Positions 10,006-60,170 of a stretch of 64,000 bases of DNA are shown here, one piece after another. The notes beneath the pieces were generated by a model. It worked only from the letters and a program-made list of their open reading frames with translations. It ran no database searches and was not told where the DNA came from. Within the stretch, counting starts at the first letter, position 1, and every line of letters begins with the position of its first letter. A program made the position numbers and the translations under genes. Source of the stretch: Bacteroidales bacterium (GTDB taxonomy: Bacteria; Bacteroidota; Bacteroidia; Bacteroidales; ML635J-15); NCBI GenBank assembly GCA_003249955.1, contig QKHS01000094.1, positions 1 through 64,000 of the forward strand. Reading direction: 5' to 3'.

Positions 10006-10532
10006 AGCTTCTGTTTATACCTTTCTGAATACTGTTTATAAACGGAATCTTTCAACTCCTGAATTTCATCCGCCGTTGCCCGAACGCCAGTTCCATGCTT
10101 CTTAAGAATTGCCGGTGTAATATCAAATAATACATTTCTATCTTCACACTTTTTTAGATAGTCTTTAACTGTTGTAATTACTCTGGCGGGATTTCCTCCA
10201 ACAACTACACCTGCAGGAACATCTTTTGTAACAACGGCACCCGCACCGATTATTGCACCATCGCCTACTTTTACGCCTGGCAATACTACAGCATTTGCCC
10301 CGAGAAATACTTTGTTCCCGATTATGGTTTTTTCAACTCTGGACTTTCCACAATGTGTAATTGTGCTGGCATCATGAGCCAATATTACTGAGCCTGGAGC
10401 AGAAATAAAGCCTTCGCCTATAACAACTAATTCGTCCAGAGTATCAATATTTGTATTCATACCTTTTGGATAATCGGGAGAAGGGCCTTTAGCCATTCTT
10501 ACCAAAATTTTGAAAATTCTGAGTATTCTCAT
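10002..10532 (-). CDS. Hexapeptide-repeat (LbH) acyltransferase
   Basis: This 176-residue left-handed beta-helix protein has imperfect hexapeptide repeats from about residue 30 ([16 protein letters not shown]) to 120 ([20 protein letters not shown]), ending with the usual NPARVI motif of serine- or sugar-acetyltransferases. It probably acetylates a sugar hydroxyl or amine in the cytoplasm. Both ends overlap its neighbours by four bases, so it is translationally coupled to the C5-epimerase-like gene upstream and the glycosyltransferase downstream. The acceptor is unknown. It is distinct from the NeuD-like enzyme in the same operon, which carries an extra N-terminal domain. Confidence 0.88.
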
Positions 10533-13633: not shown

Positions 13634-13639
13634 CGCTTT

Positions 13640-14275: not shown

Positions 14276-14277
14276 TT

Positions 14278-15456
14278 TTATTCTATAATTAGCTTCATGA
14301 AAGAAAAGATATAATCTTTCAGTTTAAACAACTCTTCTCTGTTTTCTTTTTGTAAAATCACATATCCATACCTGTCCGGTCCGAATTTTATTTTAGGAAC
14401 ACGACTGCCTTTTTCCAGAAAGAACTTAAATTCTATAACACCGGGAAGAGATTTCAAATGTTCATAATCAGAAATTTCCTTTACTGTTCCCTCCGGGAAT
14501 TCAAAATAATATATTCCAGAGGCCATTTTTCCGGATGAGCTTAAGTTCGGTTCTTTTCCTAAAGTAATATCCAAAGCAGCTTGCTCCATATTGATCCCTG
14601 TAGATAACGGAACCAGATGCGAGCAAATATAATCACCAGCCATTCTGCCACTCGCTTCCAGAACCTTTATTTCATCGCCGTTAACTAATATTTCGCAATG
14701 CGAAGCACAATTTTCAAAACCAAATGCTACTGACATTTTATGAACAAGTCTCTCAATTTCCTTAAATTTTTCCTCGCTAAAAAGTGATGGATGTGTTAAT
14801 TCCATTTCACAACGATAAGGCAGTTCTGTCATAACTTTATCTGTTATCTGTAACAGTTTTGTTTTGCCATTATAGTGCAATGACTCCAGACTATATTCTT
14901 TGCCATAAATAACCTCTTCGCATAATATAGTATCTCCTTTGGTAAATCTTTTCGCATCAACGAATGCGATTTCTGCATCCTGTCTGTTGTAGCAAATAGT
15001 AACACCTCTACTGCCTGAATTATCTCTGGGCTTTAATACCAAAGGGTAATTCATATCATCAGATAATTCGCTGATTAACTTATATTTTGCACATGGAATT
15101 CCGTTTTTGACAAAAACCTCTTTCATCTTTAACTTGTCCGTGCAGTTTCTGGCAGAGTCTTCGCTAATACAACCTATGCCATATTTAGCCGCAACCCTTG
15201 CCATCATTACCAATGGTTTGTCGGTAGCAACAGTAATGATATGTGTAATTCCGTGTTTCTCAATTACATTACAGGTTCCTTCATAATCCTGTCCATCTAC
15301 CACCTCAAATGCATCACAATAATTTTGCCCTGTTGCCGCCGGGTTAGGATCAATTACAACTGTGAACAACCCTGCTGACTTACAAAGCTTTATCAAAGTC
15401 AACTGATCGTTTCCTCCCCCAAAAATCAATATTTTCACACTTGAATTTTCCATCAT
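14278..15456 (-). CDS. ATP-grasp ligase of unknown substrate
   Basis: This 392-residue ATP-grasp enzyme has an N-terminal preATP-grasp fold starting VKILIFGGGNDQLTLIKLCKSAG, a nucleotide-binding core with LVLKPRDNSGSRGV near 145-158, and the acidic metal-binding segment ending IKVLEASGRMAGDY near 265-280. Such enzymes join a carboxylate to an amine through an acyl phosphate. In a sugar cluster the natural guess is attachment of an amino acid or other acid to a sugar amino group, but no substrate is visible. It overlaps the DegT gene by four bases and is two bases from the acetyltransferase, so all three are co-expressed. Related ATP-grasp proteins also occur in Campylobacter and Leptospira glycan loci (general knowledge). 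Confidence 0.82.
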   Translation of the reverse strand: MMENSSVKILIFGGGNDQLTLIKLCKSAGLFTVVIDPNPAATGQNYCDAFEVVDGQDYEGTCNVIEKHGITHIITVATDKPLVMMARVAAKYGIGCISEDSARNCTDKLKMKEVFVKNGIPCAKYKLISELSDDMNYPLVLKPRDNSGSRGVTICYNRQDAEIAFVDAKRFTKGDTILCEEVIYGKEYSLESLHYNGKTKLLQITDKVMTELPYRCEMELTHPSLFSEEKFKEIERLVHKMSVAFGFENCASHCEILVNGDEIKVLEASGRMAGDYICSHLVPLSTGINMEQAALDITLGKEPNLSSSGKMASGIYYFEFPEGTVKEISDYEHLKSLPGVIEFKFFLEKGSRVPKIKFGPDRYGYVILQKENREELFKLKDYIFSFMKLIIE

Positions 15457-16595
15457 TTTCTCAAATTACTAATAATACTTTTTAATGTTTCGCATATGTA
15501 CCTTACTTCTTCTTCTGTAAGTGATGAGTACATAGGAAGAGTAATTTCATTATCCGCAACATATTCTGAAAGCGGAAGATTTGAAGTAAATTCTTTGTAA
15601 ATCGAAAACTTATGTATTGCCGGATAATGAACAGATGTCTGAATACCATTTTCGTGCATTTGATTTCTTACTCTATCCCGAAATTCAGAATCTGAATTTT
15701 TTAAAACAACCGGCATAACATAGTTTGATACAAATTCATTGTTCTCTGCAAAAGGCAATATTACAGGATCATAATCACTCAGATATTTCTGATACATTGC
15801 TCTTACAATCTGTCTTTTATGCAAATCCGGCAACAATTTATCAAGCTGAACAATGCCAATTGAAGCCCGGATATCATCCAATCTGAAATTATATCCTAGT
15901 TCCACGACATCATATACTGTTGCATGCCCTGATGCCCGTTGATAAGACATAGTTGTCATTCCATGCGAACGTAACAGCCTTGCCCTTGCACCAAGTGTCT
16001 CAGAATCAGTAACCAACATGCCGCCCTCTCCGGTACTTATGTTTTTATTTGAAAAAAAACTAAAACACCCGACATCTCCTATTGTTCCAAGTTTCTTCCC
16101 TTTATACTCAGATAATGGACCGTGACAGGCATCTTCAATAATTTTTAAATTATATTTTTTTGCAAGCAGAAGTATTTCATCCATTTCTGCCGAAAAGCCG
16201 GCCATATGAACAACAAGTATTGCTTTGGTTTTTCCGGTAATTAACGGCTCTATATTTTCGGCACAAATATTTATATGGCTCAAACTCTTTATATCACAGA
16301 ATACCGGAGTTGCGCCCACATATCTTATACTATTTACAGAAGCTACAAATGTTAAAGACGGGCAAATAACCTCATCACCTTCTTTAATGTCGAGCACTTT
16401 CAATGCCAAATGTAAGGAGTCTGTACAGTTTGACAAACTAACGGCATATCTAACGTCAAGCATTTCTGAAAATTTTCTTTCAAAAATTTCACATTTAGGC
16501 CCCGTGGAAATCCATTTTGAACGCAAGGTTTCTAACACAGCTTCTTCCTCTGTGTTATCAAAATTTAACTTAAATAACGGTATTTGATAATTCAT
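15453..16595 (-). CDS. DegT/DnrJ/EryC1 PLP-dependent sugar aminotransferase
   Basis: This 380-residue aminotransferase transfers an amino group, usually from glutamate, to a keto sugar nucleotide. The PLP lysine is expected at residue 184 in SFFSNKNISTGEGG, and EDACHGP near 154-160 holds the cofactor-binding Asp. The C-terminal part with LGYNFRLDDIRASIG is standard for the family. The LegB-like 4,6-dehydratase lies immediately upstream with one base between, so the expected product is a 4-amino-4,6-dideoxy sugar nucleotide (LegC- or PglE-like role). It differs in sequence from the second DegT enzyme of the operon (22165-23298), implying two separate amino sugars. Confidence 0.9.
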   Translation of the reverse strand: MNYQIPLFKLNFDNTEEEAVLETLRSKWISTGPKCEIFERKFSEMLDVRYAVSLSNCTDSLHLALKVLDIKEGDEVICPSLTFVASVNSIRYVGATPVFCDIKSLSHINICAENIEPLITGKTKAILVVHMAGFSAEMDEILLLAKKYNLKIIEDACHGPLSEYKGKKLGTIGDVGCFSFFSNKNISTGEGGMLVTDSETLGARARLLRSHGMTTMSYQRASGHATVYDVVELGYNFRLDDIRASIGIVQLDKLLPDLHKRQIVRAMYQKYLSDYDPVILPFAENNEFVSNYVMPVVLKNSDSEFRDRVRNQMHENGIQTSVHYPAIHKFSIYKEFTSNLPLSEYVADNEITLPMYSSLTEEEVRYICETLKSIISNLRK

Positions 16596-16596
16596 T

Positions 16597-17571
16597 TTAA
16601 ATATTATAAATATTTGCTTTATATCTTTTTAAATTTTCTTTGTCTAAAAACCAATTTATTGTTTCCGTCAAGCCATTTTCAATTGAATACCCTGTTTTAA
16701 AACCGGTTAAGGCTCTGATCTTTGAATTATCACCCCAAAGTCTAAATACTTCAGAGTTTTTTGGTCTTATGCGATTTGTATCTTCAACAAATTTTACATC
16801 AGATTTCATTATTTTTGCAATCAGTTCCAGAGTATCCCTCATTGAAATTTCGTAATTGCTGGCAATATTGATTTCTTCTCCAATAGCATTTTTACAATCA
16901 GCAATTTCTATAAAGCCTTTACATGTGTCTTTTACAAAGGTAAAATCTCTGGTTGGTGTTAAATCGCCCAGTTTTATTTCTTTTATTCCGGATGCTATCT
17001 GACTGATAATTGTGGGAATTATAGCTCTTGCAGATTGTCTTGGGCCATAAGTATTAAACGGACGAACAATTGTTACGGGCAACTCAAAAGCATTGTAAAA
17101 ACTCATTGCCATTGCATCAGCCCCGATTTTTGATGCAGAATATGGCGATTGCGGTTGTTTAGGGTGTTTCTCGTTAATAGGGACGTACTGAGCTGTTCCA
17201 TAAACTTCACTGGTAGATGTTGCCAATATTCTTTTAACATTGCTGTCTTTCGCCGCCTGACAGATATTAAGTGTTCCCCTTATATTTGTGTCAACATAAG
17301 AGTCAGGGGCAACGTAAGAATACGGTATTGCAATTAATGCTGCCAGGTGATAAATTACATCAATATCCTTAACAATCTGCCTGCAAAAGTTAGCATCCCG
17401 GATATCTCCGCTTACAACCTCAAGATTTTCATGTTTAATACCTTCGAGCCAACCCCAGTTGTTGAACGAATTATAATATGATAACGCTCTGACTTCATGG
17501 TTATGATCAAGTAACATTTCTGTTAAATGAGAACCTATAAAACCATCCGCTCCTGTTACAAGTATTTTCAT
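16597..17571 (-). CDS. LegB-like NAD-dependent 4,6-dehydratase (extended SDR)
   Basis: This 324-residue extended short-chain dehydrogenase has the NAD loop GADGFIGSH at 7-15 and the active-site pair Tyr144/Lys148 in SPYSASK. The TSTSEVYG motif near 118-125 is characteristic of 4,6-dehydratases. Stretches such as YYNSFNNWGWL, HLAALIAIPYSY, PFNTYGPRQSARA and LGDLTPTRDF match LegB, the GDP-N-acetylglucosamine 4,6-dehydratase of Campylobacter legionaminic acid synthesis, as I recall it. It would make the 4-keto-6-deoxy sugar used by the adjacent aminotransferase. No NeuB-type condensing enzyme follows, so the end product is probably the amino sugar itself rather than a nonulosonic acid. Confidence 0.85.
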   Translation of the reverse strand: MKILVTGADGFIGSHLTEMLLDHNHEVRALSYYNSFNNWGWLEGIKHENLEVVSGDIRDANFCRQIVKDIDVIYHLAALIAIPYSYVAPDSYVDTNIRGTLNICQAAKDSNVKRILATSTSEVYGTAQYVPINEKHPKQPQSPYSASKIGADAMAMSFYNAFELPVTIVRPFNTYGPRQSARAIIPTIISQIASGIKEIKLGDLTPTRDFTFVKDTCKGFIEIADCKNAIGEEINIASNYEISMRDTLELIAKIMKSDVKFVEDTNRIRPKNSEVFRLWGDNSKIRALTGFKTGYSIENGLTETINWFLDKENLKRYKANIYNI

Positions 17572-18486
17572 TTATTTCTTAATTTTATATTTTAATTCTT
17601 TATTTAGTAAAGAAAAGAATTTATACGGAGATTTTAAAAAAGATTTAAAAAAGAATCCCACTGCTTTATTTCTAAGTCCTCTTTCTTTGCAAACATATGC
17701 ATAACGGAATGCTTTAAACGAATAATACCTTTTGCTTATCTTTCTGTACTTCCCGTTATAAACGTTGCTAATAAGTGCAATATAGTTGAGCATTTTTTGC
17801 ATACGTTCTGTTTTAGGAGAGCTCCCGTCAGCGGTAACGGAGCCTTCGTGTTTCCTATATACTGACATAGTATCATCTAACCCGAAAATTTTTCCTTTTT
17901 CAAATGCCGTTGCAATTATAAAAACGTCTTGTTGCAACATATGTTTATGTGTTGCATACTTAAGATAATACGGATCTTCAACCAATGATCTGTAAAACAT
18001 TACGGTGGAAGTTGCTATAACCCAATCCTCCCAAACATTTGAAGGTGTATAGTCCCCGGATCTGTACGTTTCTAAATAGCTCTTTTCGGTATTCTCGCCT
18101 TCAAAAACCTGCTCAATATTATGAAAGCATAGTGAATACTGTGGATTGTTTTCCAAAAAATCGACTTGCTTTTGTAATTTATGAGTATCTGTCCAATAAT
18201 CATCGCCATCACATTGTGCTATATATTTACCGGTACATTTTGCAAAAGTTGCCGCATAATTCTTTATTAAGCCAAGATTTTTCTCATGTTTTAAAACTAT
18301 TATTTTACCGGGATACTGTTTTTCATATTGTTCGCAGATTGACATTGTAGAGTCCGTACTACAATCTTCTCCAATTATAATATTATAGTCAAAATTACAT
18401 TCCTGCATCAAAATACTATCTAAAGTTTTTGGCAAGTGCTTTTCCTGATTGTATGTTATTACTGCTACGGATACCAGAGTTGTCAT
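17572..18486 (-). CDS. GT2 family glycosyltransferase
   Basis: This 304-residue GT-A glycosyltransferase starts LVSVAVITYNQEKHLPKTL, with GEDCSTDSTM near 39-48 for nucleotide binding and QCDGDDYW near 91-98 as the DXD metal site. The C-terminus is short and basic, without a clear membrane helix, so it acts at the inner face of the membrane. It follows the LegB-like gene's upstream neighbour with no spacing problems (start overlaps the SDR stop by four bases). The donor could be one of the amino sugars made by the neighbouring enzymes; this is only an inference from position. Confidence 0.9.
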   Translation of the reverse strand: MTTLVSVAVITYNQEKHLPKTLDSILMQECNFDYNIIIGEDCSTDSTMSICEQYEKQYPGKIIVLKHEKNLGLIKNYAATFAKCTGKYIAQCDGDDYWTDTHKLQKQVDFLENNPQYSLCFHNIEQVFEGENTEKSYLETYRSGDYTPSNVWEDWVIATSTVMFYRSLVEDPYYLKYATHKHMLQQDVFIIATAFEKGKIFGLDDTMSVYRKHEGSVTADGSSPKTERMQKMLNYIALISNVYNGKYRKISKRYYSFKAFRYAYVCKERGLRNKAVGFFFKSFLKSPYKFFSLLNKELKYKIKK

Positions 18487-19163
18487 AATTTTAAATATTT
18501 TCTCAACAAATTTTCCAGATAAAATTCTTTACTTATTGCAAGATCGTCAAACAGATCTCCTGACAATTTAGTATCATAATAAAATTTTGCTCCTTTACTA
18601 ATAAGTTCAACGTTTGCAATTTTGCCAATCACTTTTTCGCAACAACGAATAATTTCCCGAATGCTAAATTCCTGCGGGTTAACCAAAAATATTGTATCAT
18701 TTATAATATTCTCATTCAAAACCTTATTATACATTAACATAAAATGGTCAATATCCAGTATGTTTCGGAATGCATTAGCCCATACTTCAATTTTATCTCC
18801 TCTTATTATTGAATTACAAAGATATGGTAAAATTGATTTTTCCGGAGCTAATGCTCCAAATAAATTACTTTTTCTTATTATTAAGTAGTTATGCGAAATG
18901 TTTTTAACAATCTTTTCCATCGCAGTCTTATGCTGCACATAAATCTGGTCAGACAATGAAGAATCATTAATGCTATAGGTGCTTAAATAAACTATCTTTT
19001 TATCTGCATTTAACTTAATCAGATTCCTTAAGATTTTCTCTTCAAACTGAAAATCCTTAAAATCCGTAGCCTTTGAATCCAGGACCTCCTCTGCAAAAAC
19101 AATTACGTTATTCCTGTCGTACGTCTTAATATGCTCAGCAATAAAGCCATCTCCAACAACCAT
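18483..19163 (-). CDS. Short NAD(P)-dependent sugar reductase/epimerase (SDR)
   Basis: The 226-residue protein opens directly with a dinucleotide loop, VVGDGFIAEH, and has a YVQHK segment near residue 90-94 that would supply the Tyr and Lys of the SDR active site. RKSNLFG and a C-terminal domain follow. It is about 80 residues shorter than usual extended SDRs, mainly through a compressed N-terminal half. No alternative in-frame start is visible upstream. It is wedged between two GT2 genes with tiny spacers. A role as a C3/C4 ketoreductase or epimerase for a deoxysugar nucleotide is likely but unspecific. Confidence 0.7.
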   Translation of the reverse strand: MVVGDGFIAEHIKTYDRNNVIVFAEEVLDSKATDFKDFQFEEKILRNLIKLNADKKIVYLSTYSINDSSLSDQIYVQHKTAMEKIVKNISHNYLIIRKSNLFGALAPEKSILPYLCNSIIRGDKIEVWANAFRNILDIDHFMLMYNKVLNENIINDTIFLVNPQEFSIREIIRCCEKVIGKIANVELISKGAKFYYDTKLSGDLFDDLAISKEFYLENLLRKYLKL

Positions 19164-19165
19164 AT

Positions 19166-20251
19166 TTACATAATTAAGCCTGATGCCTTTATCACCAGTT
19201 CATGATCAAGATCTGTTTTCCTAAAATCCGATTCTGTATGAAATAAAAACCCAGGTAAGCATTTTCTTATGATTCGATAATTGATTGAACGCAGGACAAA
19301 AACATTCTCAAGATGCTTTAAATTCCAGAGATATATTTTTATAAAAATTAATAAAATTTTATTATGCCTGTAAATATCCCTCATTTTCTTAATAAGAATA
19401 CTATGGTCAAACTTAATCTTTTTCTTTACAATTCTCTCTGCAAATAAAAAACAGTAAGATGATAGATGTTTATTGCAGTCATTTTTCCCGGTGATACTTA
19501 AATCTGAGTTGTTGATTAAAGCATGCCACTTATCAAAAAGTCTCATTTTACTTAAAATTCTATCCTCTTTTAAATCAGATGCACTTATTCTTTCATTTTC
19601 ATTCTCATATATATGGCGAATAAAATAATCCGGCAAACAATCTGCTTCATAAAACTGCAATCCCTTAATCAGAGCACACAAGTGAATGTCTGCATCCTGC
19701 CAATCAGCTAAACTTTCGTCCCATTTAATATTGAACTTTTTTAATGACTCTGCATTCCATAATGGGCCTGTAGTTGACCATGGGATATCAGAAGTCAAGA
19801 ATCTTTTAATCTGGCTAACATCTTTTTTAGTTATGTTCCACAACAGTCTCGAATCGCCGGGTTTTCTGGCAAAGTGTAACCCAGGAAATACCCATGCATC
19901 ATATTCAGGTTTATCTCTAGCTACTTTGAGCCTTTCCTCAAGACAAGCAGAAGTAATCAAATCGTCTGAGTCCAAAAACATAATATATTCCCCGCATGAA
20001 TTTTCGACACCTATATTTCTGCAGGAACATGCACCTTTAGGCTCTCTGTCTCTTTCGTATATTTTAAACCGTCTATCTTTTGCTGAAAACTCCTTAATTA
20101 TTGCCTTTGTATCATCTGTAGAACCATCATCTATAATAATACATTCAAAGTTTTCGTATGATTGATTAATGACACTTGTCAGTGTCTCCCTTATTAAGGA
20201 AGCACGGTTATAGGCGGGGATTAATATTGAAACCAAAAAATCAGTCATCAA
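19166..20251 (-). CDS. GT2 family glycosyltransferase
   Basis: This 361-residue GT-A enzyme shows the standard start FLVSILIPAYNRASLIRETL, the nucleotide-binding IIDDGSTDDT near 39-48 and MFLDSDDLIT near 91-100 as metal-binding DXD. The central part contains WDESLADWQDADIH near 193-206, resembling the catalytic-base region of GT2 enzymes. The C-terminal 120 residues are basic and hydrophobic and may sit on the membrane. It lies four bases downstream of the GT56-like gene within the operon. Donor and linkage are unknown. Confidence 0.9.
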   Translation of the reverse strand: MMTDFLVSILIPAYNRASLIRETLTSVINQSYENFECIIIDDGSTDDTKAIIKEFSAKDRRFKIYERDREPKGACSCRNIGVENSCGEYIMFLDSDDLITSACLEERLKVARDKPEYDAWVFPGLHFARKPGDSRLLWNITKKDVSQIKRFLTSDIPWSTTGPLWNAESLKKFNIKWDESLADWQDADIHLCALIKGLQFYEADCLPDYFIRHIYENENERISASDLKEDRILSKMRLFDKWHALINNSDLSITGKNDCNKHLSSYCFLFAERIVKKKIKFDHSILIKKMRDIYRHNKILLIFIKIYLWNLKHLENVFVLRSINYRIIRKCLPGFLFHTESDFRKTDLDHELVIKASGLIM

Positions 20252-20255
20252 TTAT

Positions 20256-21413
20256 TTATATCGTAAGGAGATTCCTGTATTTTTTTGCCATTTCAATTTC
20301 TCCGAATAATTTTTCAAGATTTTCCATATTTAATTGCTTATGTTCAGCACTGTTTTCAACAATTTTAAATGTTTCATCCATATCAGCCATACTGTAAACT
20401 TTAACATTATTTGATGTTAAGAATTTATATAGATTACTTTCAGGAAGCATAAATACTGGAATATCATTCTTTAAAAACCAGATAATATTTCCTGCTGCCT
20501 GAGACCTGATATTAAAAAATAAAGCGGCCTCGCACTCCGCCAGAAGATTAAAGTAATCATCCTTGCTCAGAAATCCTTCCAAACAAACAATATCCTTCCC
20601 AAATAATCTACCACCCAGAGTTTTAACTTCTGATACGTACTTATCAGAGCCACCATAAGATAATGGCATTATTAAAGTTTTATGACCGGCATCCTTTTCA
20701 GACCGAGAATATAAAAACTTTAAAGCATCAAGATGATTATTAAATAAAGATGCTGAATTCCCGCACAATATTTTATTCCCGGCTTGTTTACGAACTTCTG
20801 TACTTGTCAGATTCATCTGATCCAGTCCGATATAGTTCCAGTCTGTAAATTTCATTTTAGGGAACAACGGCATTATAAAATCTTCATAGTCTTGCTCAAT
20901 ATAATGAGCAAAGTAATCTATTTTGCCCATTGCCTCAATGATTCTGGTCTCCTCCCTATTCTTTTTATCAGAGTAGAATCTATAATTTATTAAGTTCCTT
21001 CTTAATTTAACCGGATTTAATGTAAAGTGAAACTTAAAATCGGTATTATTAATATAAAAACGGTATGATTCTTTCAGCAAAAATTTTTCAATATAAAAAC
21101 TCAATGTAAATACTTCTGCTCCAAAGAAAATCCATATTAATTTTGATTTTTCATAAAGTTTATTTTCAACTATCAGATTTGCAAATAAAAACGACATTGA
21201 ATGAAAGAAAACCCGCTCCGCTCCGCTCAGTATTTTTTTAGCTTCAGTGAGCCCGTCTTCTTTAGTATTTAAAACAATTACATTGTCGCTTCTGGTAAAT
21301 CTGATTTCAGCATCACTGAAAACAATGTATTTATTTACAGTCTCAGTATATTTCCTTTCATTAGCAATAAAATAATCAAGGAATTTATCATCATATGACA
21401 AATGTACATTCAT
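20256..21413 (-). CDS. GT56-like 4-amino-4,6-dideoxysugar transferase (WecF-like)
   Basis: The 385-residue protein resembles WecF, the TDP-Fuc4NAc:lipid II transferase (CAZy GT56). Matching features are KLIWIFFGAEVF near 117-128, the donor-domain motif LIMPLSYGGSDKYVSEV near 233-249, LEGFLSKDDYFNLLAECEAALF near 264-285 and RSQAAGNIIWFL near 289-300. In enterobacteria WecF uses a dTDP-4-acetamido-4,6-dideoxyhexose. Here the gene directly follows VioA- and VioF-type genes that would make dTDP-4-formamido-4,6-dideoxyglucose, so that sugar is the likely donor (inference). The N-terminal third is poorly conserved with what I remember, so a related but distinct specificity is expected. Confidence 0.8.
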   Translation of the reverse strand: MNVHLSYDDKFLDYFIANERKYTETVNKYIVFSDAEIRFTRSDNVIVLNTKEDGLTEAKKILSGAERVFFHSMSFLFANLIVENKLYEKSKLIWIFFGAEVFTLSFYIEKFLLKESYRFYINNTDFKFHFTLNPVKLRRNLINYRFYSDKKNREETRIIEAMGKIDYFAHYIEQDYEDFIMPLFPKMKFTDWNYIGLDQMNLTSTEVRKQAGNKILCGNSASLFNNHLDALKFLYSRSEKDAGHKTLIMPLSYGGSDKYVSEVKTLGGRLFGKDIVCLEGFLSKDDYFNLLAECEAALFFNIRSQAAGNIIWFLKNDIPVFMLPESNLYKFLTSNNVKVYSMADMDETFKIVENSAEHKQLNMENLEKLFGEIEMAKKYRNLLTI

Positions 21414-21439
21414 TGGTATATCCTATATTTTTCTAAAAT

Positions 21440-22168
21440 TTATTCATAAGACACCTCTAATTTCAACTTCACTTTCACTCCTGTTTTCTCATCGATAAAG
21501 AAAAGATTTTGATATGTTCCATGGCTCATGGCTCTTAAATAATCATAAAATTCAGAAAAAGTCCCTGTTCTGGTTAAATCAACTTCACATAAATTATTAA
21601 AGTCCTTTTTGCTAAAAAAATTACCGTTTTTTTCAGGGGGAAATGTTGAATATGAGTTATTTATTATGTCGGAGAAATGCTTCTCAAACAATTCAATTTC
21701 CTTTTCCAATACTCTGTCATATAAACTTAGTGATGTGTCAAAACTATATTTTTCAACTTTTTCACGCGCTATTATCGGACCATTATCCAATTTTGCATCC
21801 ATTTCATGAATAGTAGCTCCGATATCTAAATTATAAAGTATTGCAAAAACCTGAGGATACCAACCTCTGTTAACGGGGTTATATCCGGGATGAATATTTA
21901 CGCATCTCACGTTTTCGACCAAAGCTTCGGGGAAAAACTGAAAACAATGCAATGAGATTATTAAATCATAGGATTTGATTAACATCCCGACTTCTTTGTT
22001 AACATCAACAGTGGCTGGCCTGCCAATAAAATCTTCGTGATTTGCCAAAGGGCTGGAATCAGGGCTATGCTTAAAATCAAAACATACTCCCTGCGGATTT
22101 ATTCTGTTAATAATACCCTTAACTTTATTATACTGTATAACGTTATCACTTATGACTAAAACTCTCAT
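21440..22168 (-). CDS. vioF: dTDP-4-amino-4,6-dideoxyglucose formyltransferase (VioF-like)
   Basis: The 242-residue protein belongs to the formyltransferases that use N10-formyltetrahydrofolate. The catalytic triad is visible: Asn91 and His93 in VNIHPGYNP and Asp128 in KLDNGPII. The motif NRGWYPQVFAI is typical of sugar N-formyltransferases such as VioF and the Campylobacter and Mycobacterium homologues. A C-terminal segment (about 190-242) forms a small beta domain similar to the dimerisation part of that family. It overlaps the VioA-like gene by four bases, so the two steps (amination, formylation at C4) are coupled. The predicted product is dTDP-Qui4NFo; the dTDP-glucose starting enzymes RmlA and RmlB are not in this window. 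Confidence 0.88.
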   Translation of the reverse strand: MRVLVISDNVIQYNKVKGIINRINPQGVCFDFKHSPDSSPLANHEDFIGRPATVDVNKEVGMLIKSYDLIISLHCFQFFPEALVENVRCVNIHPGYNPVNRGWYPQVFAILYNLDIGATIHEMDAKLDNGPIIAREKVEKYSFDTSLSLYDRVLEKEIELFEKHFSDIINNSYSTFPPEKNGNFFSKKDFNNLCEVDLTRTGTFSEFYDYLRAMSHGTYQNLFFIDEKTGVKVKLKLEVSYE

Positions 22169-23298
22169 TGCTTAAATGTTTTTATTATTTTCAGAACATC
22201 TTCATTTGCCAAATCCGGATATATTGGTAAGCATATTACTTCATTTGATGCTTTTACAGCACATGGTAATAATTCGGGAGCTGCACTTGACAGTTTATTA
22301 TATGGAGAAAACATGCTTATCAAAGGATAAAAATATCTTCTCCCAAAAATATTATTTCTCTTTAATTCTTCATATAATTCATCTCTGCTTCTACCATAAC
22401 TGTTTTCATCAATAAAAACCGGGAAATATGAATAATTGTGTTTAACACCCTCAATTTCATCAAGAAAGCTTATTCCCGGAATGTCTCCCAACCCAGACCG
22501 GTATTTATCTGCAATAGCTTTTCTTTTTATAATATTACCATCAACATATTTTAATTGCAATAAACCCATAGCTGCCTGAAGTTCATTCATTTTTGCATTT
22601 ATTCCCGGTTCAACAACAGTAGTTTCATCCCTAAATCCGAAATTTTTAAGGTCATCAATATGTTGTTTCATTTGCTTATCTTTACAAACAATAGCACCAC
22701 CTTCAAACGTATTAAACACCTTTGTTGCATGAAAACTCAAAATGGACAAATCTCCCTGATTTAGAACAGGTATTCCGTTTTTAGTTACTCCAAAAGCATG
22801 AGCGGCATCATAAATAACTTTGAGATTATATTTGTCCGATATTCTCTTAATCTTATCTGTATCGCATGGAGTTCCATAGACATGTACAGGCATAATTGCT
22901 GTAGTTGCAGGAGTAATTGCCTTTTCAATCTTATCAGGATCTAAATTTAATGTAACAGGGTCAATATCAATAAATATCGGTTTTATGTTGTTCCACCATA
23001 ATGAATGAGTGGTTGCAACAAATGAAAATGGTGTTGTAATAACCTCACCTGAAATTTTTAATGCCTGTAACGCCGTAATTAAAGCTAAAGTACCATTGGA
23101 AAACAAGGAAATATATTCTATTCCCAGATGTTCACAAAGCTCTTTTTCTAACTTTTGGTGAAACGGACCATTGTTTGTAAGCTGTCCATTTGCCCAAATC
23201 TGCTCAAGATATTGATTAAACTCTTCCAAAGGTGGTAAAAATGGTTTGGTAACATAAATATTTTTATTCTCCATGTAATTTTGATTTGAGGTTATCAT
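22165..23298 (-). CDS. vioA: dTDP-4-keto-6-deoxyglucose transaminase (VioA-like)
   Basis: This 377-residue DegT-family PLP aminotransferase has the PLP lysine at 193 (SFHATKVFNTFEGG) and the cofactor Asp at 164 in YDAAHAFG. Its opening, with VTKPFLPPLEEF and TNNGPFHQKLE, and the segment GEVITTPFSFVATTHS are like VioA of E. coli O7, which makes dTDP-viosamine. The VioF-like gene follows directly. The longest frame starts at 23298; an ATG eight codons further in (23274) is an equally good start. The gene overlaps the end of the methyltransferase gene by 35 bases from the first start, or 11 from the second. Confidence 0.88.
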   Translation of the reverse strand: MITSNQNYMENKNIYVTKPFLPPLEEFNQYLEQIWANGQLTNNGPFHQKLEKELCEHLGIEYISLFSNGTLALITALQALKISGEVITTPFSFVATTHSLWWNNIKPIFIDIDPVTLNLDPDKIEKAITPATTAIMPVHVYGTPCDTDKIKRISDKYNLKVIYDAAHAFGVTKNGIPVLNQGDLSILSFHATKVFNTFEGGAIVCKDKQMKQHIDDLKNFGFRDETTVVEPGINAKMNELQAAMGLLQLKYVDGNIIKRKAIADKYRSGLGDIPGISFLDEIEGVKHNYSYFPVFIDENSYGRSRDELYEELKRNNIFGRRYFYPLISMFSPYNKLSSAAPELLPCAVKASNEVICLPIYPDLANEDVLKIIKTFKQ

Positions 23299-23989
23299 CT
23301 TTTCCTGCTACACAGTGTAATCCCGTTATCATATCTCCATGTCTATATTCAATTCTAATATCTTTTAAATCCTTTTTATAAAAAAACTTTACTAATGGAA
23401 AAACACATATTGAAAATACTTTTCCTTTTCTGCCACAAAGATATCTCCTTCCATATTGGGCAAGCATTGAAGCAAGACAGGCATTCCATCTTCCTGCCGG
23501 TTTCATTTCAACAATCTTAAATTGTCTTTCATTTAAAATCCTTTCAAGAGCAAAAGGAGTATAACGGTATTCATCAAAAGGAATGTCGTGCAATCCCCAA
23601 AAAAACGGGACTGTGATAAATAACAACCCTTCTGACTTTAAAACACGTCTGATTTCCTTTAATATATTTGATGGATCCGGAATATGTTCTAAAACTTCTG
23701 TTAATAAAACAATATCAAATTCGGCATCTTGAAAAGGCAGAATGTTTCCATCCCAAAAATAGTCTGGTTTAATCTCGGTTTGATATGATTCACTTTTAAT
23801 GTCTATACCTGTGTATCCTATAACTTTATCGTTTTCAAGTATCATTTTCTTATATGGCATATGCCCGCAACCAACATCCAATACTTTTCCATAAAAAAAC
23901 AATTGATTCCAACGGAGCATCACTCTTTCCCTAACTTCCCGAGGGAAAAAGGTGTCCATATTTCGATAATTTGGCTTTTTGTCTTCCAT
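23264..23989 (-). CDS. Class I SAM-dependent methyltransferase
   Basis: This 241-residue Rossmann methyltransferase has the SAM-binding motif KVLDVGCGHMPYKK near 34-47, an acidic residue after the second strand (GIDIKSES), and FDIVLLTEVLEHIPDPSNILKE near 92-113 with the motif for the post-binding loop. The remainder (LKSEGLLFITVPFFWGLHDIPFDEYRYTP) is typical of methyltransferases in O-antigen clusters. It may methylate a sugar or a terminal residue on the growing glycan; O-methyl caps often define chain end in ABC-exported polysaccharides. The substrate is unknown. It lies between the asparagine-synthetase-like and VioA-like genes. Confidence 0.88.
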   Translation of the reverse strand: MEDKKPNYRNMDTFFPREVRERVMLRWNQLFFYGKVLDVGCGHMPYKKMILENDKVIGYTGIDIKSESYQTEIKPDYFWDGNILPFQDAEFDIVLLTEVLEHIPDPSNILKEIRRVLKSEGLLFITVPFFWGLHDIPFDEYRYTPFALERILNERQFKIVEMKPAGRWNACLASMLAQYGRRYLCGRKGKVFSICVFPLVKFFYKKDLKDIRIEYRHGDMITGLHCVAGKDDNLKSKLHGE

Positions 23990-24022
23990 TAATATAACTT
24001 ATTAAAAGGCTGGCAAAACATA

Positions 24023-25717
24023 TTAATTTGCAATCACCTTTACTAACGTAAATAAATTCATCATTTTTGATGATGATTTTTCTTTTATAACAGATAATAA
24101 AGTTAAGTATAATTCATTTGGTAATATATTTATGCTATCTTTAATAAAATTTTCCATCATTTCTCTGTTAATGTTAGCCCAACTTTCATTTGGCAACATT
24201 ATTTTATTGTATAGACTTCTGCATCTGACATAATATTGATACTTTATGATGCGTTGTAGTTTTTGATGTATTGAATTTTCCCAAATTGTCTGGCGTTCAG
24301 TTTTTTGATAAAAATAATTTTTTGTTTTTGGATAGTATCTTTTTATCCAATCAAAATACAGCTTGTGATCTTTTTTAACTTGAGGATTGACCCTGTTTAA
24401 AAATCCTAAAAAATCAGAATTTAAAAATGGAGAATAATATTCCGTCAAAGAACCTGCAATATAATCTCCACTCATTGTATTATTAAAAACCCAATTGTAA
24501 TAATTGTATATTTCGGAATTGATATAGTTACCTGCTAATTCATCCACAAATGGTTTAATTTTATCAAACAACTTGTTATCTCGAAGCTTATACTGCATTT
24601 CAATTGTATCTGAATTGTACTTACTATGATTTGAAAAATAATTTAATGTATCTCCAACTATTGCGTCCCCAACTTGTCCGGTCATTACCAAACCTGAATT
24701 TTTCAGATCCAACTCTTTTAACGCATAAAGAGAATGTGCAGCTGCCTGAAAACCGACGGTACCGCCGGATTGATAGATTAATTCATTATAATCATCCAAA
24801 TACTCTCCTTTACCCAGATCAATGAAAGTATTTTTCTTTGATATTTTTTTTGATATTTCTTGTGCAATTATCTTATCCCAACTATTATCAATTGAGAAAG
24901 TGTAAGTTTCAAAATCATATCCTTGTTTATTTGCAGATAAGGCAACCATTCTTGAGTCCAACCCACCACTTAATGTCACATATGTGCTTTTCTTATTTCT
25001 TATGTTTTTTTCAAATCCGGATTTTACAGCATTATCAAAACGGGCATTTAACTCGTAAAGTAACTCGTCATATTTTAAATCAACATATGGCTCTGAAGTC
25101 AAATTCCAATAAGATTTTACAGTCACGGTATTCCTCTTAAAAGTAAGGAACTCTCCGCCACAAAGTTTAAAAATATTTTCAAAACATGTATATTTAGATG
25201 GGTAATAACCGAATATGAGAAAATAATAAATGGCATTATGGTTTAACTCCCCCGTTTCTAATTTTTCTAGTTTTATCAGGTTTTTAAGGTCTATAAAATT
25301 TGTTGCAAAATAAATAGTATTGTTTTTAAAAAAATAAAATACCGGTTTTGAAGTTGTAATATTTGTATAAAGTTCTAATTTGTAGTCGGCTTTATCTAAA
25401 AAAAACAATGAAAAATTACCTTCAAGCTCTGTAACCCAGTCATTAGGCCTCTGAAACCTGATTGTAGTTATTATTTCGCACCAATCTTTAGTATTATACT
25501 TTTCAAATAAATTATGGTCGTTTAAAATATAACCATTAATGAACAGGCAATATTCTTTATTGTTTATGGAAACAACATTTTCATCTTTTCCTGACACTAA
25601 ATGGTTATCCCGAATATCATGCTCATTAAGTCTAAAACTTAATTCTTTGTCTGAATCAAAATTAAGAAACAATTCATTCCCGGTTAATTCGCCATATTTC
25701 CCAATAATGTGATTCAT
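24023..25717 (-). CDS. Asparagine-synthetase-like protein without N-terminal Cys
   Basis: This 564-residue protein has the two-domain asparagine synthetase B plan: an N-terminal Ntn-like domain (about 1-190) and an ATP-pyrophosphatase domain with the loop TLSGGLDSRMVALSA near 248-262. The start MNHIIGKYG lacks the Cys2 nucleophile needed for glutaminase activity, so free ammonia, another amine or a different reaction is implied. Homologues in polysaccharide clusters, such as WbpS, amidate uronic acids; that use would fit the C5-epimerase-like gene downstream. It overlaps the wzt gene by four bases, so it is coupled to the exporter. The gene is markedly AT-rich. A second member with the same missing Cys is at 44046-45650. 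Confidence 0.85.
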   Translation of the reverse strand: MNHIIGKYGELTGNELFLNFDSDKELSFRLNEHDIRDNHLVSGKDENVVSINNKEYCLFINGYILNDHNLFEKYNTKDWCEIITTIRFQRPNDWVTELEGNFSLFFLDKADYKLELYTNITTSKPVFYFFKNNTIYFATNFIDLKNLIKLEKLETGELNHNAIYYFLIFGYYPSKYTCFENIFKLCGGEFLTFKRNTVTVKSYWNLTSEPYVDLKYDELLYELNARFDNAVKSGFEKNIRNKKSTYVTLSGGLDSRMVALSANKQGYDFETYTFSIDNSWDKIIAQEISKKISKKNTFIDLGKGEYLDDYNELIYQSGGTVGFQAAAHSLYALKELDLKNSGLVMTGQVGDAIVGDTLNYFSNHSKYNSDTIEMQYKLRDNKLFDKIKPFVDELAGNYINSEIYNYYNWVFNNTMSGDYIAGSLTEYYSPFLNSDFLGFLNRVNPQVKKDHKLYFDWIKRYYPKTKNYFYQKTERQTIWENSIHQKLQRIIKYQYYVRCRSLYNKIMLPNESWANINREMMENFIKDSINILPNELYLTLLSVIKEKSSSKMMNLFTLVKVIAN

Positions 25718-27006
25718 TTTGAATAAATATTAAATTCAACAATAGCTTCGTTAGCCGCCCTGTTAATAACTCCTGTATTCCAATAATCACCCTGGAGAAC
25801 GTCAAACGTGAATGCATTATCGATAACATCTTCAAAATTTTCAGGGGTACTGTCTTTGTAACTGGCAAAAAGTCTGACATAATATTTCCCCCCACGTAAA
25901 AGCATTTTTGGAATCTCAATGATTATTTGGCCCTCATCTGAGATCTGCAACAACTTCAATCCGGTATCAATTGAAGAATACCCGATAATGACATGCTCAT
26001 AAAAATCTTTAATTAATATGCCCCAGATGAACTTTGCCGGATCAATATCTTCTATTTTATTCCTGTAATCAATAACAAATTTAACATATTCACCTGAAAT
26101 AATCTCAACAATTGATTTGTCATATTTATCATACATAAATATTGAGGTGTACCTGAAATTACCAGCCCCGGTTCTGTCAGATCTGTCATTTAGATTACTG
26201 CTTATTGCTTTACTTTTACCGTAATACAAGCTTATTATGTTTTCAACATTATCAATTTTGTCAACAGATCCGTTTGCCAAAAGAATTCCTGTTTTACACA
26301 AACTCTTTACGGCAGCCATATTATGACTCACAAATAAAACTGTACGTCCTCCTCCTTTACTAACATCCTGCATTTTGCCAATAGCCTTTTTCTGAAACTC
26401 CGCATCTCCAACAGCCAGAACTTCATCAACCACTAAAATGTCCGGCTCCAAATGAGCTGCTATTGAAAATCCAAGCCTAACGGTCATACCACTTGAATAA
26501 CGTTTAACCGGGGTATCAATATATCTTTCAATGCCTGCAAAATCAATTATCATATCAAGCTTGTCGGATATTTCAGCTCTGCTCATTCCCATAATTGCTC
26601 CATTCATGAATATGTTCTCCCTTCCGGTCATTTCCGGGTGAAAACCAGTACCAACCTCTAATAGAGAAGCTATTCTTCCATTGTATTTTATGCTACCGGT
26701 AGTTGGTTTGGTAACTCTGGAAAGAAGCTTTAATAATGTGGACTTTCCGGCACCATTCTTTCCGATAATTCCAACAATATCTCCTTTTTCAATTTCTAAA
26801 TTTATATCTTTCAATGCCCAAACATATTCTGAAGTACCTTTAGTAGCCCTGTCATTTGCTTCTCCTATCTTAAGATAAGGATCTTCTTTTCCCATAACAC
26901 TCGTAGCCCACCATCTTTTTAAATCGTGAGACAAAGTTCCAGTACTAACTACCCCTAGTCTGTATTGTTTACTTACATTTTCTATTTTTATTGCAACATT
27001 GGTCAT
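25714..27006 (-). CDS. wzt: ABC exporter ATPase with C-terminal glycan-binding domain (Wzt)
   Basis: This is the ATPase of a polysaccharide ABC exporter of the Wzm/Wzt type. Residues 1-245 hold the nucleotide-binding domain: Walker A GIIGKNGAGKST near 76-87, signature YSSGMTVRLGFS near 163-174, Walker B ILVVDEVLAVGD near 186-197 and the switch His in FVSHNMA. Residues about 250-430 form a beta-rich extension like the Wzt C-terminal domain, which in known O-antigen systems recognises the modified end of the chain before export. Its presence suggests that this glycan also has a terminal mark, possibly added by the methyltransferase downstream. It follows wzm after 28 bases. Confidence 0.92.
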   Translation of the reverse strand: MTNVAIKIENVSKQYRLGVVSTGTLSHDLKRWWATSVMGKEDPYLKIGEANDRATKGTSEYVWALKDINLEIEKGDIVGIIGKNGAGKSTLLKLLSRVTKPTTGSIKYNGRIASLLEVGTGFHPEMTGRENIFMNGAIMGMSRAEISDKLDMIIDFAGIERYIDTPVKRYSSGMTVRLGFSIAAHLEPDILVVDEVLAVGDAEFQKKAIGKMQDVSKGGGRTVLFVSHNMAAVKSLCKTGILLANGSVDKIDNVENIISLYYGKSKAISSNLNDRSDRTGAGNFRYTSIFMYDKYDKSIVEIISGEYVKFVIDYRNKIEDIDPAKFIWGILIKDFYEHVIIGYSSIDTGLKLLQISDEGQIIIEIPKMLLRGGKYYVRLFASYKDSTPENFEDVIDNAFTFDVLQGDYWNTGVINRAANEAIVEFNIYSK

Positions 27007-40824: not shown

Positions 40825-41745
40825 TTACCTGTTCTCCGTCTTAAGATTCTGAAAATTCTCAATAATCTTTTTTCGGCCTGCTCTCAAAAGAGATGTCCCT
40901 TTAAAACGACGGTTAAATTCCCTGTTGCTGATTTCGGTAAGGTCTTCGGGGACAATGTTTTGAACAGCATTGTGTAATTGCAATTCGTCGCACGTCGAAT
41001 ATTTTGTATTTTTATTATGTGGGCATACATCCTGACAAATGTCACAACCAAAAAGTTGATTTGTAACTTTCTCTGCAATCCCGGATGGTGTTTTTTCTTT
41101 GCTTTCAATTGTGTGGTACGAAATACATTTATTTGCATTCAAACCTTTTTCAGACAATGCTCCGACAGGACAGGCATCTACACAGCGTGTGCAGTTTCCG
41201 CAATTTATCAAAACAGGGGAATCATAATCTGATTCTGCATCACATATAATTTCGCCTATAAATACCCATGAGCCTGAATGTGGAGTTATAAGACAAGTGT
41301 TTTTGCCGATATATCCGAGTCCTGAAGACATTGCAAAATATCTTTCCAGAACAGGTGCCGTATCTGTAAAAACACGCGCACGAATTTCCGGATATTTTTT
41401 AATAATTTCATCCAGCATATTTTGTAACTTAGACTTCATCAGATCATGGTAATCTTGTCCAAGGGCATATTTGGAAATTACAAAATTTTTATCCGTTGGC
41501 TGCTCTGCCGGAAAATAATTTAATACTACAGAAATAACAGATTTTGCATTTTCCAACAGTAAAGCAGGGTTTTCACGCAAAGAAACATTCTCCTGCATAT
41601 ACCTCATGCCGGCGTTAAATCCTGATTTCAACCAATTATTGAGGAATTCTACATGTGAACTGCTTACTCCGGCTTTACTTATTCCGCATGAGCTGAATCC
41701 GGCAACGGCAGCCAGGTGTTTTACATAAGCGGCATCAAGCCTCAC
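40825..41745 (-). CDS. queG: Epoxyqueuosine reductase QueG
   Basis: QueG reduces epoxyqueuosine in tRNA to queuosine using cobalamin and two [4Fe-4S] clusters. The cluster ligands are visible as CGNCTRCVDACP at 182-193 and CDICQDVCPHN at 234-244, with a further Cys near 207. Asp128 in FTDTAPVLER is the expected catalytic acid. The length (306 residues) is normal for forms lacking the C-terminal HEAT domain. It lies two bases after the split repeat-protein gene on the same strand, which is likely chance operon membership. The cobalamin need is shared with mutAB further along. Confidence 0.96.
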   Translation of the reverse strand: MRLDAAYVKHLAAVAGFSSCGISKAGVSSSHVEFLNNWLKSGFNAGMRYMQENVSLRENPALLLENAKSVISVVLNYFPAEQPTDKNFVISKYALGQDYHDLMKSKLQNMLDEIIKKYPEIRARVFTDTAPVLERYFAMSSGLGYIGKNTCLITPHSGSWVFIGEIICDAESDYDSPVLINCGNCTRCVDACPVGALSEKGLNANKCISYHTIESKEKTPSGIAEKVTNQLFGCDICQDVCPHNKNTKYSTCDELQLHNAVQNIVPEDLTEISNREFNRRFKGTSLLRAGRKKIIENFQNLKTENR

Positions 41746-41747
41746 TT

Positions 41748-41978
41748 TTAATCGTTTTTATATGTTTTACCTTTTGAATAAATATGTTCTGAGTTTACTC
41801 CAAAAGTATATTTTACAATGCTTCCGTGAACTTCAAATCCTGTAACTTTTTCGTAAGAAATTGTTTCTGTCTTTTCTCCGTCAAAAAATTTGAGATTTCC
41901 CAACTGGTCGATCCATGCAACAACATTATTGTTCATTTTATAATCATCCGGTATATAACTTTCAAGAGTATATTTCAA
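41748..41978 (-). CDS. C-terminal piece of a frameshifted repeat protein
   Basis: This 76-codon frame encodes MKYTLESYIPDDYK and onward, including NNNVVAWIDQLGNLKFF, which is one more unit of the repeat in the upstream frame (41962-42867). It has no signal peptide and overlaps the upstream frame. The upstream frame ends VYTLEIYS while this one contains YTLESYIP, because a 13-bp unit is duplicated at the junction. Removing one unit joins the frames as VYTLESYIPDDYK. I therefore read it as the severed end of the upstream gene and not an independent gene. Confidence 0.75.
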   Translation of the reverse strand: MKYTLESYIPDDYKMNNNVVAWIDQLGNLKFFDGEKTETISYEKVTGFEVHGSIVKYTFGVNSEHIYSKGKTYKND

Positions 41979-41985
41979 GAGTATA
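41960..41985 (-). repeat. 13-bp tandem duplication causing a frameshift
   Basis: On the minus strand the unit TATACTCTTGAAA occurs twice in direct succession. Thirteen is not a multiple of three, so the second copy shifts the frame and brings a TGA into phase. With one copy the two flanking frames become a single open frame. Confidence 0.9.
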
Positions 41986-42867
41986 GACCTGTCCGTTTAC
42001 CCATACTTTGAAATAATTCTGAACTCCGAAGACCATCAATTCATCAGTGGTTTCATAAAAATCTGGCTCATCAAACGACACTGTTTCTTTTTTGAAATTG
42101 TAAAACACTTTTAAGTAATTATTTGCATCGACATAAGCTACAAAACAGTCTCCGGTTTTGTATGATACCGGCTCAAAGTTTTCGAGTTCAGACAAGTCGC
42201 CGAAATAATAAATCTGAAAATTATTTACCGGTTCTTCCACAAAAGCAACAATGTCTCTTCCTGCCGACAAAGACTTCACTCTCTCTCCGAAACAAAGACT
42301 TTCGGTTTCGCCGTTATAAAAAACATTCATATATCCCTGACTGTCAACAAAAGCAACTATATTTTCACCTACAGTAACAGCTCCCATAGTATCAGAAGCC
42401 AATGCATCATCAAGGTCATATACTTCCTTGTTGTAATATGCCTTTAACATTTTATCGTAATCGTCATACCATACAACAACATCATCTCCCAGATAATAGT
42501 CGGAAAGATTAATTGTAAGATTCTTAACAGTGCCGTCATCAAAAACTTTCAGTTGTGTATTCATGCTTAATGCGGCAAGATTATCGCTGACTTTATATGA
42601 ACTTGCAAAACTACTTACCTGATGCAGATAGTGATTATAAAAAATCTTAAAGTTTCCCGCATTATCTTCATATGCAAGCATATTGTTGCTGACTATATAA
42701 GATTTTAAAGGCAAATGCTCGGTTTGTTTTAATTTCCCGTCACTGAAAACCTGAACATTATTGAGGTAATCGCTTAAAAATGAGATATACTGAGCCCCGG
42801 CATTATTCGCCGTAAAAATAGCTACAATGCTTATTACGCATAGCTTTAGTAAATATTTTAATTTCAT
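41962..42867 (-). CDS. Secreted beta-propeller-like repeat protein (truncated by frameshift)
   Basis: I do not recognise a named family. The ATG at 42867 gives a signal peptide (MKLKYLLKLCVISIVAIFTANNAGA); an ATG three codons upstream (42876) is possible. The mature part is built of about eight repeats of roughly 38-42 residues with the pattern of an acidic turn, VAxVD, then K/Q-VFYNG, for example ENIVAFVDSQGYMNVFYNGE and CFVAYVDANNYLKVFYNF. This resembles beta-propeller or PQQ-like blades. The frame stops at a TGA created by the 13-bp duplication; the last unit continues in 41748-41978. The protein is probably periplasmic or outer-surface. The ligand is unknown. Confidence 0.75.
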   Translation of the reverse strand: MKLKYLLKLCVISIVAIFTANNAGAQYISFLSDYLNNVQVFSDGKLKQTEHLPLKSYIVSNNMLAYEDNAGNFKIFYNHYLHQVSSFASSYKVSDNLAALSMNTQLKVFDDGTVKNLTINLSDYYLGDDVVVWYDDYDKMLKAYYNKEVYDLDDALASDTMGAVTVGENIVAFVDSQGYMNVFYNGETESLCFGERVKSLSAGRDIVAFVEEPVNNFQIYYFGDLSELENFEPVSYKTGDCFVAYVDANNYLKVFYNFKKETVSFDEPDFYETTDELMVFGVQNYFKVWVNGQVYTLEIYS

Positions 42868-42902
42868 ATCGGGCATATTAATTATAACAAATATAACGAA
42901 AA

Positions 42903-42932
42903 CAAATATAGTTTTAATACTTTTGCAACAAA
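42903..42932 (-). promoter_or_regulatory. Candidate promoter for the repeat-protein gene
   Basis: On the minus strand TTTG (42929-42932) is followed after 18 bases by TATATTTG (42903-42910), an exact fit to the Bacteroidota -33/-7 pattern. The ATGs at 42876 and 42867 lie about 30-40 bases downstream. Confidence 0.5.
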
Positions 42933-42969: not shown

Positions 42970-44010
42970 ATGAGTAAAACAGAGAAGGCGCTTACAATTT
43001 CGGACCTTGGAGAGTTCGGGCTTATTGACCATTTAACCAAAGATTTTACCATAACAGATAAAAAACTTATTAAAGGAATAGGCGATGATGCTGCAGTTTT
43101 CGAAACCGGGGATATATGCACACTTGTTACTACTGATTTATTGGTTGAAGGAATTCATTTTAATCTTATATATACTCCGCTTAAGCATCTCGGATACAAA
43201 GCTGTGGTTGTCAATCTCAGTGACCTGTACGCAATGAATGCTACTCCAAAATACATTACAGTTTCAATTGCCGTAAGCAGGAAATTCTCTGTACCGGCAT
43301 TGGAACAGCTTTATGAAGGAATAAAAATTGCCTGCGACCGTTTCGGGGTTGAACTCGCCGGAGGAGATACAACAAGCTCGTTATCAGGACTTTTTATAAA
43401 CATAACTGCAATTGGAGAAGCAAAAAAAGAAGATATTGTTTTCCGTAGCGGGGCAAAAAAGAACGATCTTGTTTGCGTTAGCGGTGACCTTGGCGGATCT
43501 TATTGCGGGCTGCAGTTACTGGAAAGAGAAAAAGAAGTATTTATCGGCGACCCGGCAATTCAGCCTAAACTCGACGGGTTTGAGTACATTGTGGAAAGAC
43601 AGTTAAAACCTGAACCACGCCGGGATATAATTCAAAAGCTAAAAGAAGCCGGAATTAAACCAACTTCAATGATTGATATTTCGGACGGATTATCATCAGA
43701 GATGTTGCATTTATGTAAAAACTCGGGTTGTGGCTGCATGATATTTGAAGATAAAATCCCTGTACACCCACAAACAGAAGCTGCTTCCGTAATGTTCGGG
43801 ATTGATCCGTCGATAGCTGCCATGAATGGTGGAGAGGATTACGAATTACTGTTTACCGTTCCGCTGGACAAAAAAGATATTATAGAAAAGCTCAACGACA
43901 TAAGCATTATAGGATATATACACGAGGACAAAAACACAAAACTATTTGTCCCGAGAAACGGAGCAGAACTGGAATTAAAAGCACAGGGATGGAATCCGAT
44001 GAAAGGCTGA
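42970..44010 (+). CDS. thiL: Thiamine-monophosphate kinase ThiL
   Basis: ThiL phosphorylates thiamine monophosphate to thiamine pyrophosphate. The 346-residue protein shows the AIRS/PurM-like fold signatures: FGLIDHLTKDF near 17, GIGDDAAVF near 38-46, TTDLLVEGIHFNL near 54-66, LAGGDTTSS near 131-139 and the C-terminal-domain motif MIDISDGLSSEM near 236-247 and GGEDYELLFTVP near 292-303. No TPP riboswitch was found upstream. It lies alone between the divergent repeat-protein gene and the convergent asparagine-synthetase-like gene. Confidence 0.96.
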   Translation: MSKTEKALTISDLGEFGLIDHLTKDFTITDKKLIKGIGDDAAVFETGDICTLVTTDLLVEGIHFNLIYTPLKHLGYKAVVVNLSDLYAMNATPKYITVSIAVSRKFSVPALEQLYEGIKIACDRFGVELAGGDTTSSLSGLFINITAIGEAKKEDIVFRSGAKKNDLVCVSGDLGGSYCGLQLLEREKEVFIGDPAIQPKLDGFEYIVERQLKPEPRRDIIQKLKEAGIKPTSMIDISDGLSSEMLHLCKNSGCGCMIFEDKIPVHPQTEAASVMFGIDPSIAAMNGGEDYELLFTVPLDKKDIIEKLNDISIIGYIHEDKNTKLFVPRNGAELELKAQGWNPMKG

Positions 44011-59826: not shown

Positions 59827-59873
59827 TACGCTGTTCCCGGAGTCGTCATTTTCCTGATTTATTGGTTGTAATA

Positions 59874-59976
59874 GAAATAAAATTAATTAGCCACGAAAGC
59901 ACGAAAAAAGGGATTAGACTTTAGTGTTTTAGTGTTTTGGTGGCAAGCAAAGAGAAAGAAAAAACTTAGTGGCGTA
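59874..59976 (+). repeat. Tandem unit 1 with hairpin 59890-59944
   Basis: The unit opens GAAATAAAATTAATTAGCC. Its hairpin pairs GCCACGAAAGCACGAAA with TTTAGTGTTTTGGTGGC (two mismatches and one G-T pair) and is followed by an AAAGAAAAAACTTAGTGGC tail. Confidence 0.8.
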
Positions 59977-60079
59977 GAAATAAAATTAAGTGGCCACGAA
60001 AGCACAAAAAATGGAAAGCCCTTTTAGTGTCTTGGTGTCTTAGTGGCAGGCAAAAAGAAAGAAAAAACTTAGTAGCATA
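59977..60079 (+). repeat. Tandem unit 2 with hairpin 59993-60047
   Basis: This unit has the same length (103 bases) and layout as unit 1. The right arm reads GTGTCTTAGTGGC, so several arm positions differ from unit 1 while most pairing is kept. Confidence 0.8.
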
Positions 60080-60170
60080 GAAATAAAATTAATTAGCCAC
60101 AAAAGCACGAAAACACAAAAAATGGAATTAACCTTTAGTGTCTTGGTGTCTTAGTGGCATAGTGGCATAA
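60080..60170 (+). repeat. Tandem unit 3 with hairpin 60096-60158
   Basis: The opening GAAATAAAATTAATTAGCC is the same as unit 1. The left arm is extended by one more sub-unit (AAAACACAAAAAA), and the tail is replaced by a second AGTGGCATA. It ends 16 bases before the next start codon. Confidence 0.75.

Follow-up and report, generated by a model that had tools for sequence, protein, structure and literature searches.

Pneumococcal capsule genes are known to undergo tandem duplications that are reversible. Another such gene is ssp1 of a fungus, fission yeast. In fungal ssp1, tandem duplications mediated by microhomology, which are reversible as well, are described in a review (PMC13207564). At a different type of junction, a close contact between the stop codon of the first and the start codon of the second gene is a feature of touching gene pairs that are translationally coupled; in Escherichia coli, separating the genes by 38 bases cost two pairs 80-90% of re-initiation and a third pair all of it, and a gap of 2 bases led to a loss of 5, 20 and 70% in three pairs (PMC10666635). 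As for the protein affected here, literature on 'ten-bladed' propellers frequently concerns sortilin or SorCS2 among the matches listed, and a literature search for 10-bladed propellers in Bacteroid- organisms found none.

The locus described here, on the minus strand of the window (by which we mean the whole 64-kb stretch of DNA analysed), shares with the fungal and the pneumococcal cases a frame-breaking short exact tandem duplication. It differs in that the organism is of another kind, in that the flanking microhomology present in the fungal cases is lacking, and in that the duplication is known from one assembly. Probably, a recent, lineage-private and spontaneous 13-bp tandem duplication broke a single-copy gene for a presumably exported 10-bladed beta-propeller, which is a gene-breaking mutation of an ordinary kind.

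A 13-bp tandem duplication interrupts a beta-propeller gene

The 13-base unit TATACTCTTGAAA is present in two exact head-to-tail copies at 41960-41985 (minus strand). Copy 1 in the reading direction lies at 41973..41985, as recovered from the sequence, with Tandem Repeats Finder and in a genome-wide 13-mer search, and copy 2, likewise recovered from the sequence and with Tandem Repeats Finder (100% match, 2.0 copies, the period ending with copy 2), at 41960..41972. As 13 is indivisible by three, the copy number of the unit determines the frame; the duplication shifts it, and the upstream frame terminates at the TGA 41962-41964 carried by copy 2. The exact doubling of the unit and the frame shift at a TGA had both been noticed in a preliminary description of this DNA and are borne out.

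Among the 12 exact tandem arrays of the window (units of 8-40 bases), this unit is the only one of 12-40 bases, the second-longest having 11 bases, and 60 simulated versions of the window, drawn from an order-3 Markov model, yielded no exact tandem unit of 12-16 bases. Throughout the genome of 4,701,889 bases, the 13-mer occurs just in the two copies at 41960-41985, which rules out a dispersed element. In 20 other stretches of this genome, 315,000 bases in all, seven rows of exact tandem repeats are present (unit length 9-60 bases, two of the rows overlapping): the four arrays with units divisible by three have both flanks open, of equal length and on the same strand, and the 10-base and two 14-base rows are situated inside frames of at most 70 codons. 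As no array in these 315,000 bases splits a long frame, they give no sign of a genome prone to frame-breaking duplications.

Both frames flanking the break match PF21734, a family of 10-bladed beta-propellers. The upstream piece (41962..42876, minus strand), with 304 residues from ATG 42876 and a signal-peptide-like N-terminus, covers profile positions 3-280 (E 5.8e-65, 220.3 bits), and the downstream piece (41748..41978, minus strand), with 76 residues from TTG 41976-41978 and corresponding to about the last two blades, covers positions 274-345 (E 5.5e-15, 56 bits; curated cut-off 27), so that together they span positions 3-345 of 345. The window's copy of the family is interrupted. The upstream frame had previously been given as 41962-42867, which is the correct frame, with 42867 as the second possible ATG and a longer start at 42876. 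Judged from its N-terminus, the protein is probably exported.

Because the two pieces match PF21734 consecutively and 27 of 28 other homologues are unbroken at the site, the reading of 41962-42876 and 41748-41978 as a single gene interrupted by the duplication, as had been proposed, is well supported. Separate genes with independent starts were rejected, as relatives show one frame, and in annotation the two predicted genes are better treated as one interrupted PF21734 gene. A whole-genome search returned the two pieces (221.6 and 52.1 bits) and no further PF21734 member; none of 14 control genomes was positive. Neither piece matches an NCBIfam model at E up to 1. Among solved structures searched by sequence, the upstream piece had no match at E up to 1, and 10 weak matches of the downstream piece (E 0.015 to 1.4) were dismissed as chance.

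The intact state and the age of the break

The upstream piece found homologues in 34 of 100 genomes; with the intact protein of genome G001 as query, 29 of 31 genomes in the genome family matched, the window's own genome being included in both counts; the two genomes lacking a match, G012 and G018, are 74% and 88% complete. Among the 28 other genomes with a homologue (of 30), the gene runs uninterrupted across the site in 27. The remaining homologue (L027, in G030, a genome 83% complete) is interrupted by an in-frame TAA, followed by another 205 codons and unrelated to the duplication in the window; this may point to a dispensable propeller gene or to an error in the sequence. Intact proteins comprise 361-373 residues in 25 of 28 cases and 381-391 in three, with the start chosen by script.

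In each of 28 open homologues (27 within the genome family and L030 outside it), the unit is present once at the homologous place. The preliminary description had suggested comparing the locus in related strains; in these 28 homologues, the second copy is absent, and the homologous place is free of exact tandem repeats with units of 7-60 bases in every one. By this comparison, the duplication is a derived state, seen in the window's genome and in no other of those compared. Elsewhere in the homologues, three short repeats with units of 8-9 bases are found in two genes (L017 and L029). With orthologues intact (27 of 28 open across the site) and a derived disruption, the gene in the window has the hallmarks of a predicted pseudogene.

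When genomic and viral contigs were scanned with the upstream piece, no named relative emerged. With 28 aligned intact proteins as query, 39 loci were obtained, mostly labelled Bacteroidales or other Bacteroidota with one labelled Chlorobiota, of which 37 are labelled MAG and the remaining two 'uncultured ... mag'. The protein of the closest relative, L035, is 100% identical to that of G001.

Relaxed constraint on the downstream piece is not evident in identity or dN when compared with intact relatives. Between the window and G001, the downstream piece is 84.9% identical (dN 0.099) and the upstream piece 72.4% (dN 0.179); the intact pair L002-L003 shows the same order, its downstream and upstream parts being 75.3% and 66.3% identical (dN 0.182 and 0.224). 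Compared with L003, L004, L005 and L008, the downstream piece of the window is 75.3-76.7% identical and that of L002 74.0-76.7%. A downstream piece without drift implies that the break is recent on that scale, or not real; as dS is near or beyond saturation, the break cannot be dated.

That the break might not be real leads to an artefact of assembly or of strain mixing, in which the gene would be intact in the organism and the second copy an error of a probably metagenome-type assembly. In the assembled sequence, such an error could not be told from a true duplication. The 27 of 28 intact homologues and the full constraint on the downstream piece are compatible with this reading, as is the assembly of the genome, which comprises 101 contigs and is probably a MAG, since 37 of the 39 relatives are labelled as such and the other two 'uncultured ... 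mag'. Against it stand the lack of a second such event in the 315,000 further bases and the coincidence of the unit with the arm of a hairpin, which fits a biological origin; moreover, an exact 13-base tandem gain is not known as a usual short-read error. An artefact thus appears rather unlikely, and we prefer the recent duplication as the explanation.

Origin of the duplication

The exact 13-bp tandem duplication would have arisen spontaneously, possibly through replication slippage at a putative hairpin just upstream. This possibility is raised because copy 1 plus one base (41973-41986) makes up the 3' arm of an imperfect inverted repeat, the 5' arm of which lies at 42001..42013 (minus strand); the repeat was found by folding and ranks within roughly the best 2% of positions. 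When the unit is paired with the bases 4-40 upstream, the energy is -8.1, a value reached at 21 of 1075 gene positions, itself and overlapping neighbours counted, and at 355 of 21,280 sampled window positions. At the same place in the 28 open homologues, pairing is weaker than in the window (-2.3 to -6.9). The hairpin was spotted after folding and stands out at the 2% level only, and the regional fold is not unusual (z -1.38; 19 of 200 shuffled sequences fold as well), so that a promotion of the duplication by the hairpin is no more than suggestive. Of two further origins, flanking microhomology is ruled out by exactly 2.0 copies, and a transposon target duplication finds no support, in that the genome encodes no DDE_Tnp_1 (PF01609) protein, the sole transposase family searched, for which 9 of 14 control genomes were positive.

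As the copy number sets the frame, loss and gain of a 13-bp copy could in principle toggle the propeller, and perhaps queG, within a population, the on/off switch by slippage that had been among the initial suggestions. Reversion of short tandem duplications is known for the pneumococcal capsule. It is also described for fungal ssp1, with flanking microhomology (PMC13207564), which is absent here. Only two copies are present, however, and a repeat array kept in relatives, as expected of a phase-variable locus, was found in none of the 28 open homologues, so that no positive evidence speaks for a switch and we regard it as quite improbable. If reversible, the duplication would represent a minimal two-copy switch, for which support is lacking here.

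Consequences for the propeller protein

A model of the intact protein of L035, for which 33 homologues were aligned (mean pLDDT 91.4, pTM 0.84), contains one N-terminal helix followed by strands throughout, and the 39 strands predicted are consistent with ten four-stranded blades. Comparison of the model with known structures yields beta-propellers, none of them closely related. Among the 50 matches listed by Foldseek, TM-scores normalised by query length lie between 0.22 and 0.36, and the best VIA-align match (Z 12.9, with an rmsd of 6.0 over 304 residues) is 9bln_U, a chain (eIF3b) of a human 40S-eIF3 complex, followed by eIF2A (Z 12.5).

The break maps to strand 293-298 of the model, with 8 of the 39 strands, about two blades, beyond it. 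With the duplication, the upstream frame ends at TGA 41962-41964 to give a predicted protein of 304 residues without approximately the last two blades, the remaining end of the gene being left as a 76-codon remnant. On the model of the intact relative, the product presumably lacks ring closure; it might still be able to fold, although we infer that the truncated propeller loses its function. The 'recent disabling mutation' considered earlier is the interpretation that fits best: the frame break stands, relatives having one open frame, and the disablement is a likely consequence.

Alternatively, the two pieces could be made separately and assemble into one propeller. The frames overlap by 17 bases, with the TTG at 41976-41978 located 14 bases ahead of the upstream stop, an arrangement in which ribosomes could re-initiate where the TGA overlaps, and constraint on the downstream piece fits such a split. 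Recency of the break explains this constraint equally well, however, and a split is absent from 27 of the 28 other homologues. The downstream piece is also without a signal-peptide-like start and would stay behind in the cell, with no co-export to be expected. A functional split is hence highly improbable. Ribosomal frameshifting, programmed or tolerated, to join both frames can hardly be credited at all: the point of the shift carries a TGA, and moving by +1 there leads into the downstream frame, but the codon ahead of the TGA is TCT and not the CTT that precedes the TGA at the known prfB frameshift site, and relatives need no shift.

The junction with queG

The propeller gene is followed by queG, encoding tRNA epoxyqueuosine reductase (40825..41745, minus strand; TIGR00276, 295.5 bits, cut-off 200), the GTG start of which lies two bases past the propeller stop. 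Upstream and divergent is thiL, encoding thiamine-phosphate kinase (42970..44010, plus strand; TIGR01379, 306.9 bits, cut-off 184.15). Between thiL and the propeller gene, a promoter-like motif, TTTG-N18-TATATTTG (42903..42932, minus strand), resembles the Bacteroidota promoter consensus; in a looser form, the motif is found at 15 places in the window (3 on the plus and 12 on the minus strand). A sigma-70 scan around the locus gave nine matches against 9.6 expected, that is chance level, one of which spans the duplication (minus strand, 41995 to 41967), and no terminator-like site was found in the scan around the locus.

In 28 of 30 loci, the window's own included, the match to queG begins no further than about 40 bases from where the propeller gene stops. 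Counted from the final base of that stop, a possible start codon in frame with queG (ATG, GTG or TTG) begins at -25 to +9 in all 28 loci (own included) and at -7 to +9 in 24 of them. In L003, L004 and L006, queG homology starts at an ATT beside the propeller stop, where the others have ATG or GTG, and the nearest ordinary in-frame start is an ATG 25 bases ahead of the end of the stop; use of the ATT as a start codon is possible in these three.

The junction in the window (41743-41750) and those of L002-L028 suggest translational coupling of propeller and queG, with no functional link evident between the two genes. A start at or near the upstream stop (28 of 28 loci here) is common to this locus and the coupled pairs (PMC10666635), which overlap, whereas the native gap in the window is +2 bases. 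As the queG start adjoins the propeller stop and the new stop lies 216 bases ahead of the queG start, against the 38 bases that cost the E. coli pairs 80-90% or more, the break may lower QueG translation; queG may have a ribosome binding site of its own. The propeller stop at the queG start across the genome family provides a small, testable hint of joint translation. Should a hairpin-promoted, reversible 13-bp duplication toggle the exported propeller and, via the stop-start contact, QueG as well, the state of a surface protein would be tied to queuosine modification, a combination that we find exceedingly doubtful.

Other features of the window

The window contains neither Rfam families nor tRNAs. 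An array with a unit of 103 bases in 2.4-2.7 copies is located between open frames at 59871-60148, with TTAGTGTCTTAGTGGC within the unit. On the minus strand, 8677-27006 holds 18 tightly packed same-strand open frames, possibly one large operon.
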